Positions 2,442 to 13,158 of a stretch of DNA of 39,047 nt are shown here, in pieces; position 1 is the stretch's first letter, and every line of letters begins with the position of its first letter. The DNA is from Acidobacteriota bacterium. Lineage in GTDB: Bacteria; Acidobacteriota; Vicinamibacteria; Vicinamibacterales; UBA2999. Both the position numbers and the translations under genes were made by a program. Location: NCBI GenBank assembly GCA_030650395.1, contig JAUSDY010000174.1, positions 1 to 39,047 on the forward strand, in the 5' to 3' direction. The notes under the pieces were generated by a model that ran no database searches, was not told the origin of the DNA, and saw only the letters and a list, made by a program, of their open reading frames with translations.

Positions 2442-3689
2442 TCATCGGCGTACCGTGCTGATCTCAGGTTGAGGCTGGTGTGGACCCGCACGACGTGACG
2501 ATTGCGGATGCCATCCAAGCAGTCCAAGCATCACGAAGAAACCCACGACATAGGCGACTGGGACGTACCAACCATGTCGAATCCAGGCTCCAACTGAGCG
2601 AGCTTGCGGAAACAGATTCGACAGCGCGACTCCCGACGAGGAGCCAAACCAGATCATCGAGCCACCGAAGCCGACGCAATAAGCCAATACGGCCCAATCG
2701 TAGCCGCCCTGGTCGAGGGCGAGTTTCGTCAAAGGAATATTGTCGAACACCGCAGACACGAAGCCCATGCCGAACGCAGTGTGCCAGGACGGGGCCGGCA
2801 GCTGTTCAACCGGCATCATGGACGCGGCGATGACGAGCGAGAGCAGAAACGCGGTGCCGCGGCTGGCCTCGGTCAACAAATGCCAGTCGGGACGGCGAAT
2901 CGGCGCGGACAGCAGAATAACTACCCACACAGCGACACCAATAAATGGAAAAGTGTCCGCCAAGTCCGCGAAGTTCACATTCACGATGACATTGGCTCCG
3001 ATCGCGGCGACGAGAATCGCCACCACGATCCCGACACGGATCCAATCAATGTTCGGGCGATGCTCGACGTCTTTCACAATCGGCGAGTAGCGCTGCTGCT
3101 GCCGCGAAGCCGGAAAGCCAAAGACGAACAATGCCGTCAGAGCGGCGACATAGGCGGGGAAAACAGCTTGTGGGGCCACGCCGTCGATCCACATCATCGT
3201 CGTCGTCGTATCCCCGACCACACTGCCGGCTCCGCCTGCGTTTGACGCTGCAACAATCGCCGCCAAGTAGCCAATGTGGAGCTTCTTGAATAGCGAACGG
3301 GCCATGGCGCCGCCGATCAACGCGCCCGCGATGTTGTCGAGAAACGACGACAGGACGAACACAATCGCCAACAGCAGGAATGCGCCTCGCCAATCATCCG
3401 GCAACACATGTGGCAAGGCTAACGGCACGTGGCTCTTCTCGAAGTGTCGCGACAGCAAAGCAAATCCCAGCAGCAGACATGCCAGGTTGGCGACGATGAC
3501 CCATTCGTGCGACAGATGCGCCGCCAGCCCATCGAGTCCGGCGGCACCTCGAAACGATCCGAACAGCAGCTTGTATAGCGTGATCGCCAGGAGTCCGGAC
3601 GCTGCGATCTCCAACGTGCGATGGTGCCACAGCGCCACACCAAGCAAAGTGAACGCGAACAGTAAGAATTCGATAGGAATTTCTGCCAT
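2442..3689 (-). CDS. NhaD/ArsB-type ion transporter (probable Na+/H+ antiporter)
   Basis: 415 residues with about ten to twelve hydrophobic segments over its whole length, apart from a polar C-terminal tail of about 20 residues. The pair of half-helix motifs typical of the NhaD branch of the ion-transporter superfamily is visible: SFLDNIAGALIGG near residue 114 and GDTTTTMMWIDG near 158, followed by a second DNIPLTKLA motif in the C-terminal half. NhaD proteins exchange cytoplasmic Na+ for H+; a citrate or arsenite transporter relative is the alternative annotation. It lies 6 nt downstream of the small membrane protein gene and likely shares its transcript. The ATG start fits the hydrophobic N-terminus. 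Confidence 0.8.
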   Translation of the reverse strand: MAEIPIEFLLFAFTLLGVALWHHRTLEIAASGLLAITLYKLLFGSFRGAAGLDGLAAHLSHEWVIVANLACLLLGFALLSRHFEKSHVPLALPHVLPDDWRGAFLLLAIVFVLSSFLDNIAGALIGGAMARSLFKKLHIGYLAAIVAASNAGGAGSVVGDTTTTMMWIDGVAPQAVFPAYVAALTALFVFGFPASRQQQRYSPIVKDVEHRPNIDWIRVGIVVAILVAAIGANVIVNVNFADLADTFPFIGVAVWVVILLSAPIRRPDWHLLTEASRGTAFLLSLVIAASMMPVEQLPAPSWHTAFGMGFVSAVFDNIPLTKLALDQGGYDWAVLAYCVGFGGSMIWFGSSSGVALSNLFPQARSVGAWIRHGWYVPVAYVVGFFVMLGLLGWHPQSSRRAGPHQPQPEISTVRR

Positions 3690-3695
3690 GGCTGA

Positions 3696-3881
3696 CTAGC
3701 GACCGTCAGCCTTCGGCTTCGTGTCACGGTTCACAGCAGTATCGCCGCGTTTAGTGGCGGCGAGTAGCAGGAACAGCAAACCGACCAGCAGCAGTACATG
3801 CACGGCTTGCCCAACGTCAAAGACGCCGAGCACGCCGAGTAGCCAAGAAATTAGCAGTACGAGGGCGGTTTTGAAGAACAC
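3696..3881 (-). CDS. Small two-TM membrane protein, Lmo0937-like
   Basis: 61 residues starting at a GTG that follows a perfect AGGAGG ribosome binding site by 6 nt, which decides the start over the longer upstream-open frame. The product is two hydrophobic segments joined by a short loop (ALVLLISWLLGVLGVF and VHVLLLVGLLFLLLA) plus a short charged tail. This size and shape match the Lmo0937 family of tiny membrane proteins, whose function is unknown though they are often stress-induced. The gene sits 6 nt before the NhaD-like antiporter gene, so the two are probably co-translated. Confidence 0.65.
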   Translation of the reverse strand: MFFKTALVLLISWLLGVLGVFDVGQAVHVLLLVGLLFLLLAATKRGDTAVNRDTKPKADGR

Positions 3882-4020
3882 GTAAATCCTCCTGGTCTCT
3901 CGACCACGAGGATGGCGGCCCGACCACCCAGATTCCTGCAGCGGAGGTTCCGCCGCACCCATTGGTGTTTTGCTCTGACAGGCTATGCCAAAAAGACCGG
4001 TGGTGTGAAGGGAAATGGGT

Positions 4021-5058
4021 TCATGACGGCGGTCTGCGATCCAGCTCCTTCAGCTTCACGATAAAACTGACCGGCACGCGGCTCGGGTTGAAGCACACCT
4101 TGTCGTCGCAGGCCTGGTATTCGAGCGCCCCGGTGATGGTCACTGTCGTCATCCCCGCCAGCAGCTTCTGGGCTTCCGGGGTCGCGAGCAGTGTCAGATC
4201 GCGGCGAAGCTGGAAGGGTTTCATGAACACCTCGACGCGCTCGTTGAGCGGCTTGAAATGATAAATCTCCGACGCCGGGTAGATCGTCGGCTGCGGCCGC
4301 AGCCACGGCTGCGGGTCGAGCGTGAGCTGGACGACTTGGTAATCGTGTTTTCCGGGCGCGTATAGGTGCATGCCCGCCTTGGGCGTGACGTTCACGGTGA
4401 TTGCGAGACGCTCGCCTGGGGCCGCAATCCCGTCGCTGATCGCCGCAGTCATCGTGAGATGTCGAGTGTCGGCGGAGATCGCTCCGCCAGCGACACCGGC
4501 GCCGAGCGTGCTCAGAATCGTGGCGGCGGTGTAGCGCTCCTGGTAGGCATCCTCGAAGAATCGAGACCGCACGACTCCCTTGCGATCCACCACGAAGGTC
4601 CCGGGATGCGGAATCCCGTAGGTGCGTGACTTCGGATCGACCGTCTCGTTGAGCAGGCCGTATTTCCTGATGATGGCCGAGCCCGCGTCGGAGATCAGCG
4701 GAAAGGTAATCCCGCGCGAATCCGAGAACTTCCTGAGAGTCTCGGGCGAGTCGTAGCTGATGGCGATCAATCCAAGGCCCTGCTTGGCAATGTCGGCGTA
4801 GCGGCTTTGCAGCTCCACGAGCTGCGTTTTGCAGTACGGTCACCAGTCGGCGGATCGAAAGAACACGAGCATCGTGCCTTGCGCGCCGTAGGTGGACGCC
4901 AGCGCGTCGGACTTGTCGAACTGGTCGATACCGGTAAAGGCCGGCGCCGCTGAACCGACTTGCGGTCCCAGCTTGGAAGTGTCGACCACGGCAATGGACT
5001 GACCTGAAAGGCCAATGATTGACAAGGCACACGCTCTTCTCCTGGGTTTCGTTGGCAC
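4021..5058 (-). CDS. Candidate selenoprotein: redoxin (UxxC) fused to DsbD-like N-terminal domain
   Basis: Read through one in-frame TGA (4842..4840) this gene encodes 345 residues. The TGA replaces the first Cys of the thioredoxin-fold CxxC motif: FFRSADW-TGA-PYCKTQL, so the active site would be Sec-Pro-Tyr-Cys. Homology continues on both sides of the TGA: an AhpC/TSA-type redoxin (about residues 35-190, with PHPGTFVVDRKGVV) and then a DsbD alpha-type domain (about 195-340) ending with its paired-cysteine motif YQACDDKVCFNPSRVPV. A perfect stem-loop follows the TGA at the spacing required for a bacterial SECIS. Start is uncertain: GTG at 5058 is the most upstream in-frame start and no good RBS is obvious; the first residues are hydrophobic but not a clear signal peptide. 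The gene follows msrA by 41 nt, suggesting it supplies or relays electrons to MsrA outside the cytoplasm. Alternative reading: a nonsense mutation splitting the gene. Confidence 0.8.
4809..4842 (-). promoter_or_regulatory. Putative bSECIS element with its UGA codon
   Basis: On the coding (minus) strand the UGA at 4842..4840 is followed after 14 nt by GCAGCUC-GUG-GAGCUGC (4825..4809), a perfect 7-bp stem with a 3-nt loop that starts with G. The loop begins 22 nt after the UGA. Known bacterial SECIS elements need a small apical loop with an early G roughly 16-37 nt downstream of the UGA, so position, loop and stem all fit. The elongation factor SelB would bind it; selA/B/C/D are not in this window. 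Confidence 0.7.
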
Positions 5059-5099: not shown

Positions 5100-5801
5100 C
5101 TACCGAGTTCCGGACACGAGTACGGGCACCGCCCGATACACCGCCGGCAACAAGCGTTTCAGATTCTCAATCTTCGGCAGATCGTTGTAGACGATGTAGG
5201 GATAGGTGGGATTACGGACGAGAAAATCCTGGTGATACTTCTCGGCTGGATAGAACGCGCGGCCCATTTCGATCGTCGTCTCGATCCGCCTCTTGAACGC
5301 GTGGGTGGCGTCGAGTTGTGCGATGTAGGCCTTCGCGACCGCGGCCTGTTCGGCGTTGGCCGGGAAGATCGTTGACCGATACTGCGTCCCGGTGTCGGGG
5401 CCCTGCCGATTGAGCTGCGTCGGATCGTGAGCCACGGAGAAGAAGACCTGCAGCAGTTGTCCGTACGTCACCTGCCGTGGATCGAACGTCACCTGAACCG
5501 ACTCGGCGTGGCCCGTCGTGCCATCGTTGGTCAACTCATAGATCGCCGTGCTTTTGGCTCCGCCGGCATAACCGGAGACGGCGTTACTCACGCCTTTGAC
5601 ATGCTGGAAGACACCCTGCACACCCCAGAAACATCCGCCGGCAAGAACCGCCACCTCCGATGCGGCCTCGCCTGCGGGCATGTCGATGGCGGGCGCCGGG
5701 AGAGCGAGACCTTCCTGGACCGTTGCTGACATGATCCGCATCGCCAGTCCGGCGAACAGAAGAACCGCGATGAGAAGCCGGCGCGGGCTGACATGGTTCA
5801 T
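5100..5801 (-). CDS. msrA: Exported peptide-methionine (S)-S-oxide reductase
   Basis: 233 residues. The catalytic GCFWG motif is at 56-60 with nucleophile Cys57, followed by the conserved SGYAGG and GHAESV, with EKYHQDF near the C-terminus. MsrA reduces the S-epimer of methionine sulfoxide in oxidised proteins. The N-terminus (PRRLLIAVLLFAGLAMRIMSA) is a signal peptide or membrane anchor, placing the enzyme in the periplasm, unlike the usual cytoplasmic MsrA. It is the first gene of a minus-strand run with the selenocysteine-candidate redoxin-DsbD fusion 41 nt downstream. The catalytic residue here is encoded by a cysteine codon, so this MsrA is not itself a selenoprotein. Confidence 0.93.
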   Translation of the reverse strand: MNHVSPRRLLIAVLLFAGLAMRIMSATVQEGLALPAPAIDMPAGEAASEVAVLAGGCFWGVQGVFQHVKGVSNAVSGYAGGAKSTAIYELTNDGTTGHAESVQVTFDPRQVTYGQLLQVFFSVAHDPTQLNRQGPDTGTQYRSTIFPANAEQAAVAKAYIAQLDATHAFKRRIETTIEMGRAFYPAEKYHQDFLVRNPTYPYIVYNDLPKIENLKRLLPAVYRAVPVLVSGTR

Positions 5802-5811
5802 GATGGTCTCG

Positions 5812-7578
5812 CTAGGCGATCTGATACTCCGGCGTGCTCATGATCAGATGCACGGTCAGACGTAGCGCATCTTCCATGTACGTCTTGGCGCGATCGACCG
5901 TGTCGGTTCCCAACTCCTTGGTCAGGAATGTCACGAGCGCATCCCTCGTGCCTTGCGCCGCGGGCACGCGCAGCAGCCGCCACAGCAGGTAATCGACGGC
6001 TTCCGCCGTCGTCTTCGCGCCGCTGTCGAACACCATCGCACTCAGATCCAGTTGCGCCGCGCGACGCGGCGTGGGAATGAGTTTTCGCGCCGCCTGCTGC
6101 CAGCCGACGTATCCCGAGATTCGCGTGTTGAATCGCTCGTCACGCTCGAGCGCCACCATGTCGAACGCGCTCATGTTCGACGTGTCGCTCACCGCGGTGG
6201 CCGCGCCGACGTCGAGCCCATCGCGCAGCCGCTGGCCAAGCACGTTGTCGCTGCCGGCGTTGAAGTTCCAGTCCCTGAAGCCGGTCATGTCGGGGATCAG
6301 GAGATCGCGGGCCACATTGCCGCGCGCAATCAGCAGGCCCGGCGTGATCCACGCCTTGCCGCCTGCCCACCCCGCCACCGACGGGGGATTCAGCAGATGC
6401 TGCCCCATGGCGATGGTCGCCTGGTTGAAGTCGGGCACTCCCGGGACGGCGTCGGCGCCCAGCTGTTTCATCATCGTCACCAGGTGTTCCACCGGCCCCT
6501 TGATGTGGCCGCCGTAGCTGGCCTGGCTGTAGAAGTCCTTCGACGAGAAGATCGCGGTGAGCAGCGGCTTGACCTCGTAGTCGTGGTCGCGCAAGACCGA
6601 GCCCAGCTTGCGCCGCAGCTCCGGCGACAGCTCGTCGCGCACCATGAAACGGTAGATTTTTCCCGCGAGGAACTCGGCGGTCACCGGCTGCTCGAAGATG
6701 ATCTTCAGTACGTCCACGCCGCCGAGGTTCCCGGTCCTGCCGAGGAATGTCTTCGCGCCGCCATCGTGCTTCAGAGGATCGACCTTGAACGCGAGGTTGT
6801 CGAAGTACCAACCGGTGAACGCCCGCGCGCACTCGCGCACGTCGCGCTCGGTGTAGTTGCCGACGCCCATGGTGAAGAGCTCCATCACTTCGCGGGCGAA
6901 GTTCTCGTTCGCGGCGCCCTTGACGTTGTACTGCGCGTCGAGGAAGTACAGCATCGCGGGGTTCTGCGCGACGCGGATGGCCAGCTCGCGGATGCTGCCG
7001 GTCGCGCCCCGCTCGAACAGGTCGATCTGCTGCATCATCTTGCGGTAGTCGCGGACCTTGTTCTCGTGCGTGGCGAAGTGCCCGTGCCACAGCAGGGTCA
7101 TCTTCTGCTCGACGGGATGCGTGGTCTGCAGCATCCGGTTCGCCCACCAGTAGCCGAGCCGCCGCGTTTCGAGCATGGTCGCGCGCAGCCAGTAGAAGAA
7201 GCGATCGGAGACCGGCTGCACCGGCCGGTTGCCGGACGGCTTGGCCGCGATGCCCATCGACGCGCCGTCGCGTTCGGCGCGATCGGTCGCTTCAGGACGG
7301 CTCTCTGGAAATCCGTTCAGCGTCGGATCCCACAGACCCGATTCCACGAACGGCTGCATCTTCGGATTGGGGACGCGCTCGTAGTGCACGAGCGAGCGGA
7401 CCGCCGCGTCGAGGCCGGCCTTGGCGAGCGCCTCGATCTCCGCCGGCGTGCCGCCGAACCCCGCGTGCGTGAGCAGATGCGCAGCGCGATCGTAGTTCCA
7501 GTCGGCGGCCGCGATCGGCGTCAGGTCATCCTTCCAGGCTGCCGGTCCCGGAGACCAGCCGATGCGATTGGCCATCAT
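5812..7578 (-). CDS. DUF1800 family protein
   Basis: 588 residues from the ATG at 7578, which follows a GGAGAG ribosome binding site; an upstream TTG (7590) is possible but less likely. Typical DUF1800 features are visible: an N-terminal AAHLLTHAGFGGTPAEIEAL helix, HGHFATHENKVRD, NENFAREVMELFTMG and TERDVRECARAFTGW. Function is unknown. Family members are nearly always paired with a DUF1501 gene and presumed to act in the envelope. This copy has no obvious signal peptide and could be exported with its Tat-dependent partner. It lies 19 nt downstream of that partner gene. Confidence 0.9.
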   Translation of the reverse strand: MMANRIGWSPGPAAWKDDLTPIAAADWNYDRAAHLLTHAGFGGTPAEIEALAKAGLDAAVRSLVHYERVPNPKMQPFVESGLWDPTLNGFPESRPEATDRAERDGASMGIAAKPSGNRPVQPVSDRFFYWLRATMLETRRLGYWWANRMLQTTHPVEQKMTLLWHGHFATHENKVRDYRKMMQQIDLFERGATGSIRELAIRVAQNPAMLYFLDAQYNVKGAANENFAREVMELFTMGVGNYTERDVRECARAFTGWYFDNLAFKVDPLKHDGGAKTFLGRTGNLGGVDVLKIIFEQPVTAEFLAGKIYRFMVRDELSPELRRKLGSVLRDHDYEVKPLLTAIFSSKDFYSQASYGGHIKGPVEHLVTMMKQLGADAVPGVPDFNQATIAMGQHLLNPPSVAGWAGGKAWITPGLLIARGNVARDLLIPDMTGFRDWNFNAGSDNVLGQRLRDGLDVGAATAVSDTSNMSAFDMVALERDERFNTRISGYVGWQQAARKLIPTPRRAAQLDLSAMVFDSGAKTTAEAVDYLLWRLLRVPAAQGTRDALVTFLTKELGTDTVDRAKTYMEDALRLTVHLIMSTPEYQIA

Positions 7579-7597
7579 CTCGCTCTCCAACCGTCCG

Positions 7598-8845
7598 CTA
7601 CGCGCGGAACATCTTCAGTGTCTCGAACTTCTGCCCCAGCACCTTCGTGGCGTCGGCGCCGAGCCACCCGTCGATCATCGTGGCGTAGACCTGGCGGAAG
7701 TCGACGGTGTTCTCGAGGTTGTCGCCCAGCACCAGGTTGGTGAGGCTTGGCGCCTTGCCGTACAACCCGCCCTTCACGGCATTGCCGATCACGAAGTTCA
7801 CCTGCGCGGTGCCGTGGTCGGTGCCCAGGCTGGTGTTCTCCGGCACACGCCGCCCGAACTCGCTGTAGACGTACATCACCACGTCATCGGCGCGGCCGAT
7901 GCGCTGCATCTCCTGGAAGAAGCCGGCGATGGCATCCGAGCAGTACTCGAGCTGCCGATCGTGCGGGGACGCCTGGTTAACATGGGTGTCGAACAAGCTG
8001 CCGCGCAGCGGCACGTAGTACAGCCTGGTCGGAAAGTCGGCTTCGATGAGTGCCGCGACCTTATCGAGGTCGAGCAGGCGCAGGTCGGGGTTGGCCTTGC
8101 GCTGATACTGGCTCCAGGCGGCACGCACCACTTCCGATGCCTGGGCCGCGCTCTTCGTGACGTCCAGCACGTAGCGATGGGCGTCGCCCACCGGCGCCTG
8201 CGCCACCAGCGCGTCAACGACCGACTTCTCTTGCGAGAACAGCGCGCGCTGAAACCGCATGGGATCGATGAACACCAGCGGCACGTGATGCTCGGCCTTC
8301 ACCGCCAGCGTCTGGCTGTCGGAGATGTTCACGATCAGGTTGTCGCGCGACCCTGCCGGGTCCATCGCTGATGCGGTCCGGCCAATCCAGCCGTACTCGT
8401 TGCCGCTGTTGGGCGCCGCCGTGTGCATGAACGACATCGACGTGAAGTGCGAGAACGACGGCTGGTCGTAGCCCACGCCCTGGACGATCGCCACCTTGCC
8501 TTCGTCGTAGAGGCGCTTCATCCCGCGCATCGACCGGTGCCAGCCGAACTGCGCGTCGATCTTCAGCAGGTCCTTTTCCTTGATGCCGATCGTGGGCCGA
8601 TGCTTGTAGTACATCGGGTCGCCGTACGGCACGATCGTGTTCAGGCCGTCGTTGCCGCCGAACCACTCGAACACCACGAGAATCCGGCCGGAGGTCGCCG
8701 CCGCTGAAGCCCGGCTCGCCTGGGCCAGGACGAACGGCACGGGTCCCAGTCCACCAAAGAGGCCCAACCCGAGGCCGCCGGCACCGATCCGCATCATGTC
8801 GCGGCGCGAGACGCCACAGCCGCTCAATGGATTCCTGATTGTCAT
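7598..8845 (-). CDS. DUF1501 family protein, Tat-exported
   Basis: 415 residues. A twin-arginine signal is clear: SRRDMMRIG at residues 13-21 followed by a Gly/Leu-rich segment ending VPFVLAQAS. The mature part has the DUF1501 features (VVFEWFGGNDGLNTIVPYGDP, SEFGRRVPENTSLGTDHG), a fold related to alkaline phosphatase/sulfatases. The enzymatic role is not established. It is the upstream member of the DUF1501-DUF1800 pair. The ATG follows an AAGGCGGG ribosome binding site. An 83-bp intergenic region separates it from the divergent metalloprotease gene. Confidence 0.92.
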   Translation of the reverse strand: MTIRNPLSGCGVSRRDMMRIGAGGLGLGLFGGLGPVPFVLAQASRASAAATSGRILVVFEWFGGNDGLNTIVPYGDPMYYKHRPTIGIKEKDLLKIDAQFGWHRSMRGMKRLYDEGKVAIVQGVGYDQPSFSHFTSMSFMHTAAPNSGNEYGWIGRTASAMDPAGSRDNLIVNISDSQTLAVKAEHHVPLVFIDPMRFQRALFSQEKSVVDALVAQAPVGDAHRYVLDVTKSAAQASEVVRAAWSQYQRKANPDLRLLDLDKVAALIEADFPTRLYYVPLRGSLFDTHVNQASPHDRQLEYCSDAIAGFFQEMQRIGRADDVVMYVYSEFGRRVPENTSLGTDHGTAQVNFVIGNAVKGGLYGKAPSLTNLVLGDNLENTVDFRQVYATMIDGWLGADATKVLGQKFETLKMFRA

Positions 8846-10705: not shown

Positions 10706-11770
10706 CTACTTCGGGCGGCTGCCTTTGTGCTTCCGGGTGACCACGGACCGGGGGCGTGATGGCCGAATCGACTGGCCGAACGACCGATAGAGGGCTTCGA
10801 AGAGGGTCATGCCCTGATCCAGCAGCATGCTGTCGTCCATCGACGACAGCTGTAATCCATCGATGGTGATGCCAAGCGTCGCGGCCTCCGGCGCGCCAAA
10901 CTTGCCGTCCTTGAGATCGAGGTCGTGAACGATTTCAGCGATTCGTGCGACAGCGGGATCGCTGATGGCAAAGCGGGCTGCCAGCGTCTCGAAGGTGCAG
11001 CGATCCCCCTCGTGACCGAAACCGGCGCCGAACATGTCGAAGGGCAGCGCGTCACCAGCGCTTTTGACGTCGGTGATGAATCCAAAGCGCGCTTTCGAAT
11101 CGATGAATCTCCGGATCAGCCATGCGGAGGCCATCCGATCGACCCCTGGTCGCGGACGAGTCACCCACAGACGGCCGTCGTATTGGCCCGCATCCGCAGG
11201 ACCGCGCGTAGGTTGTGGGCCTTTCCCCTTGGCTGCGGACGGAGCCGCCGCCTCCAAATTGCCGAGTAGCGTAACGACGCGATCGCGTCCGGCGCTGCCG
11301 AAGAAATCGACGCGCTCGATGGCGGCAAACCGCTCTCGGTAGCGGGCGAGATCGCGACGTCGACCGGGGGGTCCTTGTCGAGACGCGCCGGCGCGCTGAA
11401 TCCGCTGCAATTCGCTTGCAAGTGCTGTGTAGGCCTGCTGCCGCACCTGGCGGAATTGGTCGATCAGTGCGGCCCCGGCTGCGGCATCGAGATGATCGGC
11501 TGAATACACGACGGCCTCGCCACCAGCCCCTTCAATTTCGACCTTCAGCCATTCGAAGTCCTCGCGTGACTCGGCCGTGTCAGGCAGCACGTAGACGGAC
11601 TGCTTGACCGCGACCGCACCCAGTTCCTGAAGGCGGCGCCAGGTCCGGACGCGCAGATTCGACGGGGTTGGTGGCAGTTGGTGGACCAGAAGCAACCAGC
11701 CCCGCGGACCTGCGCCGGGCAGGGGGCGCGCGCGAGTGACGCTGTTGGTCGTGGCAAGTGGCTTCCGCAT
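10706..11770 (-). CDS. chrB: ChrB-type chromate resistance protein/regulator
   Basis: 354 residues from the ATG at 11770. The N-terminal domain (WLLLVHQLPPTPSNLRVRTW...KQSVYVLPDT) and C-terminal domain (WVTRPRPGVDRMASAWLIRRFID..., FGHEGDRCTFETLA) both match ChrB, known as a chromate-responsive regulator or accessory protein for the ChrA efflux pump. No chrA is present nearby. An in-frame ATG at 11830 would add 20 residues and would be leaderless from a GATAAT box; I prefer 11770 because it keeps the palindromic operators out of the coding region and has a TATACT box ~24 nt upstream. The gene is divergent from a class-V aminotransferase gene, implying shared control. Confidence 0.85.
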   Translation of the reverse strand: MRKPLATTNSVTRARPLPGAGPRGWLLLVHQLPPTPSNLRVRTWRRLQELGAVAVKQSVYVLPDTAESREDFEWLKVEIEGAGGEAVVYSADHLDAAAGAALIDQFRQVRQQAYTALASELQRIQRAGASRQGPPGRRRDLARYRERFAAIERVDFFGSAGRDRVVTLLGNLEAAAPSAAKGKGPQPTRGPADAGQYDGRLWVTRPRPGVDRMASAWLIRRFIDSKARFGFITDVKSAGDALPFDMFGAGFGHEGDRCTFETLAARFAISDPAVARIAEIVHDLDLKDGKFGAPEAATLGITIDGLQLSSMDDSMLLDQGMTLFEALYRSFGQSIRPSRPRSVVTRKHKGSRPK

Positions 11771-11775
11771 GGCGT

Positions 11776-11864
11776 GTAACTGCTGTTGCCAAGTATACGG
11801 CCCTTTGCCGGGCGTGTGTAATGTAACCATGTTGACATTATCATGTAACAGTAGTTACATTACA
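11776..11864. promoter_or_regulatory. Divergent chrB/aminotransferase promoter region with three palindromic operators
   Basis: Three related palindromes of the form GTAAC-N3/4-GTTRC occur at 11776-11789 (GTAACtgctGTTGC), 11823-11834 (GTAACcatGTTG, imperfect) and 11845-11858 (GTAACagtaGTTAC). In addition TGTAATGTAAC (11817-11827) is the exact inverse of GTTACATTACA (11854-11864). A plus-strand promoter TTGACA (11832-11837)-17 bp-TTACAT (11855-11860) places transcription start at or next to the ATG at 11869, so the third operator overlaps the -10 box. On the minus strand TATACT and GATAAT are candidate -10 boxes for chrB. The binding protein could be ChrB or an unlinked repressor. Confidence 0.7.
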
Positions 11865-11868
11865 AACC

Positions 11869-13158
11869 ATGACTTTGAATCGCCGGCATTTTCTGTCGTT
11901 ATTGCCCGTCGCTGCGGTTCAGCCGCGGGTCTTCTCGTCGAGCGACGCACGCTTACTGCAGCAGCCCACTGCCGCATCGTTTCCTGCGCTGCGTCAGCAG
12001 GTCGCCGGCCGCCCACTGGCATATCTGGACAGCGCGGCGACAACGTTGCGCCCGCAGGCCGTGATCGACGCGCTCGCTGATTTCTATGCAACCGACAATG
12101 CGAACCCCGCGCCGGTGCACACGCTGGCTCGCCGCGCGGCATCCCGGTTGACGGCGGCGCGTCAGACCGTGGCGCGATTCATCAATGCCCCAAGTCCAAA
12201 CGAAATCATCTTCACGCGAGGATCGACCGAGGGGATCAACCTGATCGCCAGCACCTGGGGCGCTGCGAATCTCCGGCCGGGTGACGAAGTGATCCTCACG
12301 ATTGCGGAACACAACTCCAACCTGCTGCCGTGGACACGTGCGGCGAAACAGGCGGGCGCCACCGTTCGGGTTGTCGATTTAGACGAAGAGGGCCGCCTGC
12401 GGATCGACCAACTGAAGCAGATGACCTCTGCGAAGACCCGTCTCATCGCGTTCAGCCATGTTTCCAACGTGCTGGGCCTCGTCAATCCCGCCAAGGAAAT
12501 CTGCGCGCTGGCCAGGCAAGCTGGTGCGCGCGTCGTCATCGACGGCGCCCAGTCGGTACCCCACGTGAGCGTAGACGTGCAGGACATCGGCTGCGACTTC
12601 TACGTGTTCTCCGGTCACAAAATGCTCGGCCCGATGGCGACTGGCGTCGTGTGGGGTCGCCTGGATCTATTGGACGCGATGCCTGCGTACCACGTGGGTA
12701 GCAACATGGCCCACGACGTGGACTTCGAACATGCGGCGATCGAGCACGGAGCACAGAAGTTTCAAGCCGGAACGCCGGACGTCGCCGGGCCGGTCGGGTT
12801 GGCGGCGGCGATCGACTTCCTGACAGCGATGGGAAAAGACGCGACATGGCGTCACGATCAGGAGTTGGTGCGTCATGGTCTGGCGCGCTTGCGTGAGGTG
12901 AAGGGCTTGCGAATCATCGGACCAGTATCGGCGCCGAATCGCGTGCCGGTGTTTACGTTTGTGATCGACGGGAAGTCGCCTGTCGTCATCGCCAATGCTC
13001 TGGATGCACGAGGCATCGCCATTCGCGCAGGCGACATGGCGGCATTGCCGCTATTGAAACGCTTCGGCGTCTCCGCGGCTGCGCGCGTGTCCGCGTACGT
13101 GTATTCGACGACACACGATATCGACCGTCTGGTTCAGGCGCTCGCCGATATCGCTTGA
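11869..13158 (+). CDS. Class-V aminotransferase, SufS-like but lacking the catalytic Cys; possible Tat signal
   Basis: 429 residues with the fold-type I PLP features of the SufS/CsdA group: LDSAATTLRP, FTRGSTEGINLIA, VVIDGAQSVPH and the PLP-binding SGHKMLGP (Lys251). In true SufS enzymes the persulfide Cys lies in a RxGHHCAQP loop; here the same position reads RAGDMAALP (386-394), so the cysteine is absent and ordinary cysteine desulfuration is unlikely. The N-terminus NRRHFLSLLPVAAV resembles a twin-arginine signal, which would place the enzyme in the periplasm; it may also just be a spurious extension. The substrate is unknown. Position opposite chrB with shared operators suggests induction by the same stress. 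Confidence 0.8.
   Translation: MTLNRRHFLSLLPVAAVQPRVFSSSDARLLQQPTAASFPALRQQVAGRPLAYLDSAATTLRPQAVIDALADFYATDNANPAPVHTLARRAASRLTAARQTVARFINAPSPNEIIFTRGSTEGINLIASTWGAANLRPGDEVILTIAEHNSNLLPWTRAAKQAGATVRVVDLDEEGRLRIDQLKQMTSAKTRLIAFSHVSNVLGLVNPAKEICALARQAGARVVIDGAQSVPHVSVDVQDIGCDFYVFSGHKMLGPMATGVVWGRLDLLDAMPAYHVGSNMAHDVDFEHAAIEHGAQKFQAGTPDVAGPVGLAAAIDFLTAMGKDATWRHDQELVRHGLARLREVKGLRIIGPVSAPNRVPVFTFVIDGKSPVVIANALDARGIAIRAGDMAALPLLKRFGVSAAARVSAYVYSTTHDIDRLVQALADIA

Follow-up and report, generated by a model that had tools for sequence, protein, structure and literature searches.

Prx-like thiol:disulfide oxidoreductase selenoproteins, with a PF00578 domain and a UxxC or UxxU motif, are listed in the passages of PMC13188914 and PMC9312934 that bear on them. 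By 2006 the Acidobacteria had been credited, in the passage available, with 4 selenoproteins in 3 families. Prx-like selenoproteins of the UxxC type are already known from the literature passages drawn on here (PMC13188914, PMC9312934, PMC1794560, PMC12013277 and PMC2398784). A selenoprotein fusion of a redoxin with a DsbD-alpha domain was not found described in the literature searched, which covered few subscription journals. Here we describe a gene that very probably has this architecture, in a stretch of 39,047 nucleotides from a bacterium of the Acidobacteria; the stretch as a whole is referred to as the window.

The minus-strand frame running from 5058 to 4021 has the TGA at 4842-4840 as its sole internal stop. 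The preliminary description had reported a redoxin-DsbD frame in which a lone TGA falls on the first Cys of W-TGA-P-Y-C-K, and both the frame and its coordinates are correct. It had also expected mechanical gene calling to split the gene. This is what happens: a 265-aa ORF with a GTG start is called at 4021-4818, and the N-terminal piece is shorter than the 80-aa limit used. The part 3' of the TGA is under purifying selection, with dN/dS between 0.106 and 0.199 against nine homologues. The features of the gene are collected in Table 1.

Table 1. Features of the candidate selenoprotein gene, in positions of the window.
Feature	Position	Strand	Remark
Probable selenoprotein gene, 345 residues with Sec73	4021..5058	-	GTG at 5058 is an unproven start; stop TGA 4023-4021
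In-frame TGA, very probably selenocysteine, residue 73	4840..4842	-	motif W-TGA-P-Y-C-K
Codon of Cys76, UxxC partner of Sec73	4831..4833	-	
SECIS-like hairpin GCAGCT, loop CGTGG, AGCTGC	4809..4825	-	predicted fold: 7 pairs with GTG loop
AhpC-TSA / peroxiredoxin-fold domain, residues 34-165	4564..4959	-	105.7 bits, cut-off 26
DsbD-alpha-like domain, about residues 193-337	4048..4482	-	
Codon of Cys317, first of the alpha-domain Cys pair	4108..4110	-	invariant, 25/25
Codon of Cys322, second of the alpha-domain Cys pair	4093..4095	-	invariant, 25/25
N-terminal stretch, possible short signal peptide	4993..5058	-	by eye

We compared the site in two sets of homologues. The first was drawn from 99 genomes of the same genus, family and order, the studied genome included, and comprises 65 loci: all listed matches that cover the TGA position, down to an E-value of 1.2e-24. 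The other listed matches are either weaker, resembling ordinary peroxiredoxins, or fragments that do not reach the position. Among the matches listed, the homologous codon is TGA in 54 of the 65 loci and TGC or TGT in the other 11, so Cys-containing homologues do align at the TGA, one of the checks named in the preliminary description. One remote Cys row (L098) was later dropped, leaving 54 TGA and 10 Cys loci. The second set comes from named public genomes, where at least 590 stretches matched and at least 347 encode a relative; the best 80 of these at least 347 were kept. The scan patterns were the Cys-coded DWCP[YW]CK and YQACDDx[VIL]C, which makes the sampling uneven. By sequence 44 of the best 80 loci are new (43 TGA and 1 TGC). 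With both sets pooled and one further duplicate removed there are 107 distinct sites among the matches listed, 96 with TGA and 11 with Cys. A tree of these sites requires 8 changes between Sec and Cys, and at least three of these changes are forced by well-supported branches.

All 80 sources of the second set are metagenome assemblies. Most are labelled Acidobacteria, but Gemmatimonadota and Pseudomonadota also occur, together with one Planctomycetota and two Acidimicrobiia. At the site, the two loci labelled Acidimicrobiia (L148 and L166) do not differ from loci found in G086 and G014, genomes that belong to the order and family of the studied genome; such labels are therefore unsafe. The studied genome has a paralogue on another contig (C136, 20-1021) that also contains a TGA and is 79% identical. 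Among plasmids 91 records match, none over more than 80% of the query.

Bacterial SECIS elements usually have a G early in the apical loop, 16-37 nt from the UGA. In the gene studied here a hairpin begins 14 nt past the TGA, with GCAGCT and AGCTGC around NGTNN, and its loop G is 21 nt from the UGA. This hairpin is no more stable than dinucleotide-shuffled sequences (z -0.48; of 200 such sequences 62 fold equally well or better), and the case therefore rests on comparison. Among the matches listed, all 6 pairs are present in each of the 54 TGA genes of the first set, versus 9.9 expected from synonymous redraws, while 2 of its 10 Cys genes have the full stem (Fisher 1e-8, uncorrected for descent). 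In agreement, the RNAalifold consensus contains the stem in TGA rows and lacks it in Cys rows. In the second set, the best 80 of at least 347, all pairs are found in 40 of 43 TGA genes; the exceptions are two loci with broken pairs (L141 and L147) and one with an N (L188). The sole new Cys gene of this set (L161) retains the full stem. So does another Cys-coded gene, L079 of genome G023, and both are possibly recent changes from Sec to Cys. In G023 none of selA, selD and tRNA-Sec is above the limits used.

Columns 21/31 of the stem are G-C in 86, A-U in 9 and G-U in 1 of the 96 TGA rows among the matches listed. The A-U state requires 4 changes on the tree; the 3-4 independent comparisons, nearly all in the same direction, are too few for significance. 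In L170 the outer pair is swapped to C-G. Synonymous codon identity at codons +5 to +11 is 0.886 in 33 TGA rows versus 0.660 in 7 Cys rows; outside +1 to +11 it is 0.489-0.585 in the same TGA rows. Codons +1 to +4 are about equally conserved in TGA (0.831) and Cys rows (0.857), so their conservation is not specific to the TGA. Within the studied genome the hairpin pattern occurs exactly in two places, this gene and the paralogue. Two further places have 2 mismatches; a reversed control pattern gives 6 and 6 places at up to 2 mismatches, and the inexact places are therefore meaningless. The family offers, from bacteria that have been little studied, a clear SECIS in which compensatory changes occur.

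The preliminary description had suggested a search of the genome for selA, selB, selC and selD. In the draft assembly selB is found on contig C137, selA on C9 and selC, a tRNA-Sec with anticodon tca, on C156, but selD is not found. By eye, the best selD match in the genome (L011) resembles a ThiL-like kinase. All eight congeners have selD (8 of 8), each with one internal TGA, and congener SelD is probably itself a selenoprotein. On one side of selD in G004 the DNA, starting some 0.86 kb beyond the gene, matches contig C85 of the studied genome from base 19 on; the DNA on the other side gives short scattered matches only. The end of C85 is thus close to where selD would be expected, and the gene is probably missing through an assembly gap beside this contig.

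The machinery and the TGA form mostly occur together. With limits of E 1e-50 for selA, E 1e-25 for selD and at least 56 bits for tRNA-Sec, the 42 genomes with the TGA form contain selC in 37 cases, selA in 38, selD in 38 and at least two of the three in 40. For the 8 genomes with Cys forms only, the corresponding numbers are 0, 1, 0 and 0. Among the 49 genomes without the examined site, selC is found in 33, selA in 37 and selD in 35. Two genomes (G025 and G058) carry both forms and are counted among the 42; the counts carry no correction for common descent, and the genomes include several incomplete ones. A tRNA-Sec is not seen in 5 of the 42. The Rfam cut-off for tRNA-Sec (47) is exceeded in 5 of 14 control genomes and is not strict enough; our limit was placed by eye in the gap between 56.9 and 52.7. 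Seven matches below it (L101-L107) are all tRNA-Ser(tga). ARAGORN, run on G000, G018, G030 and G033 out of the 70 genomes above the limit, finds tRNA-Sec in each. The family is a natural Sec/Cys comparison, with matching presence and absence of the Sec machinery.

In three genomes (G018, G030 and G033) the homologues L075, L076 and L078 adjoin tRNA-Sec and selA, possibly as a Sec cassette with its own client. In G014 a homologue lies near selA and selD.

Two other explanations of the TGA should be weighed against selenocysteine. A Cys redoxin gene could have acquired a nonsense codon by chance, through decay of the gene or a sequencing error, and an otherwise open frame with a single stop is what such an event would leave. 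However, TGA occupies the same site in 96 of the 107 distinct homologous sites among the matches listed, and it is followed by a conserved hairpin and by sequence under purifying selection. The conservation of the TGA in other genomes refutes this explanation for practical purposes, and we give it next to no weight. Alternatively, the UGA could be read as Trp, Cys or Gly, by near-cognate readthrough or under another code, and the failure to find selD in the draft genome is in line with this. Against it, wherever another codon stands in place of TGA among the matches listed it encodes Cys (11 of 11 distinct sites), tRNA-Sec(tca), selA and selB are all in the genome, and the gene itself terminates in TGA. 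This makes a non-Sec reading very improbable. The original selenoprotein claim, by comparison, agrees with Cys homologues that align at the TGA, with a conserved SECIS-like hairpin behind it and with selA, selB and tRNA-Sec in the genome. Judged from these sequences, the UGA at 4842-4840 is very likely read as selenocysteine at residue 73; we stop short of certainty because one flank only backs the selD gap.

The best Pfam match of the protein is AhpC-TSA, and this domain contains the UxxC motif. A model of the whole protein, built from 25 aligned sequences with Cys written for Sec, is confident (pLDDT 90.2, pTM 0.84). In this model the first domain comes closest to BcpB (Z 19.9) and AhpE (Z 19.4), a rank that they share with other structures. 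Disulphide reductases of the ResA type match the domain too, and no NCBIfam model, among the 16 matches listed, reaches its cut-off. In AhpE we take the key residues to be the peroxidatic Cys, the Thr of TxxC and a catalytic Arg. In the alignment to AhpE, Cys76 corresponds to the first of these and U73 to the Thr, while Pro152 falls on the Arg position, occupied by Ala in the R116A structure; the latter two marks of a typical peroxiredoxin are thus replaced. There is no variation at position 73 (Sec written as Cys), C76, P152, C317 or C322 in any of the 25 sequences.

It could be argued that the selenoprotein works as a peroxidase, with either Cys76 or Sec73 attacking peroxides and its partner as the resolving residue. 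The nearest folds are indeed the peroxiredoxins BcpB and AhpE, Cys76 takes the place of the peroxidatic Cys and AhpC-TSA is the best Pfam match. However, the TxxC Thr is U73, an invariant Pro152 (25 of 25) stands where AhpE has its Arg, and the disulphide reductases of the ResA type match as well. We consider a peroxidase the less likely reading, though a serious rival. The placement of U73, Cys76 and Pro152 in the AhpE alignment suggests instead that Sec73 attacks and Cys76 resolves, by chemistry of the thioredoxin type. The preliminary description had assigned the UGA residue to the resolving position; this is probably wrong, as U73 is the N-terminal residue of UxxC, at the Thr site of peroxiredoxins.

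The DsbD_N match of the second domain (residues 214-326) scores 22.5 bits, under the Pfam cut-off of 25, but all 25 of 25 family members match the PF11412 profile at E 0.01 or better, the best at 6.9e-9. Searched by sequence against solved structures the domain has zero matches, and a profile search gives one irrelevant weak match. Modelled alone it reaches a pLDDT of 92.4, and the modelled fold is closest to ScsB (Z 12.4) and DsbD-alpha (Z 9.7-11.2), with the next folds at 8.4. Both the fold and the Cys pair of DsbD-alpha appear to be present in the model. The homologues start with signal-like stretches, and the protein itself has a short, poor signal peptide as judged by eye; it is probably exported. 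The studied genome encodes one DsbD_TM protein, on contig C94.

Comparison supports a recoded frame, an interchange of Sec and Cys, the hairpin, the two folds and the greater part of the Sec machinery, and from these a mechanism can be proposed. When a ribosome reaches the UGA at 4842-4840, an mRNA hairpin beginning 14 nt downstream would bind SelB with Sec-tRNA(UCA), and selenocysteine would go in at residue 73. The product would be an exported thiol-disulphide oxidoreductase with a peroxiredoxin fold, a thioredoxin-like UxxC and a DsbD-alpha-like domain, with Sec73 as attacker and Cys76 as resolver. Electrons may flow from a CcdA/DsbD-type membrane protein to C317/C322 of the alpha domain and on to the U73-C76 bond, a route that we propose tentatively. 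The reduced redoxin would then reduce oxidised substrates outside the cytoplasm. We infer export, the direction of the electrons, the substrates and the roles of U73 and C76.

Several neighbours in the window deserve mention. A methionine sulphoxide reductase A lies just upstream on the same strand (5100-5801, minus), with Cys rather than Sec in its GGCFWG. An operon with msrA was rejected: among 77 loci (L022-L098, with flanks of mostly about 1.5 kb) the adjacency is found in the studied stretch only. An Rfam nhaA-I RNA at 3910-3960 (minus; 53.4 bits, cut-off 37) is upstream of ORFs 3696-3962 and 2442-3689, neither of which has a Pfam match at 1e-5. By eye, the N-terminus of a class-V aminotransferase (11869-13158, plus) is Tat-like; export would be unusual for a desulphurase-like protein. 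The window also encodes a Fic protein (627-2177, minus), adjacent DUF1800 and DUF1501 proteins (5812-8845, minus) and a ChrB-like protein (10706-11830, minus).

The gene is found in Acidobacteriota genomes and in some labelled Gemmatimonadota and Pseudomonadota. As mechanical calling splits it, a probably exported selenoenzyme is easily missed. Among known systems, the Prx-like PF00578 selenoproteins share the AhpC-TSA domain with Sec first in UxxC; their table rows name no DsbD-alpha domain. The 'Redoxin family protein' (PF08534; HEU0032618.1 and MBA3499694.1) likewise has, in its table rows, a redoxin domain and UxxC, and may be the same family. TsoB (Rhodanese/DsbD fusion-like, NF045694) is likewise a selenoprotein with a DsbD-related fusion but, according to the passage available, differs in its rhodanese domain, UxxxxU motif and two Sec; NF045694 is not among the NCBIfam matches of our protein. 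The protein with Unknown_3 joins, in the passage from PMC2398784, a Prx-like UxxC domain to an extra domain with conserved Cys, as here; however, Unknown_3 is described there as having three Cys with CxxC, while the pair here is CxxxxC. Finally, the N-terminal domains of DsbD and ScsB have the fold and the invariant Cys pair in common with our second domain, at 10-17% identity, but there the alpha domain stands in front of a membrane domain and here behind a Sec redoxin. It is conceivable, though rather doubtful, that the family is a compact, membrane-free 'seleno-DsbD': an exported relay fed by CcdA and kept across several phyla, in some genomes next to Sec-machinery genes, in which a Sec redoxin of peroxiredoxin fold and thioredoxin chemistry replaces DsbD gamma beside the alpha domain. 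If so, the cassette next to the Sec-machinery genes would carry its own client.
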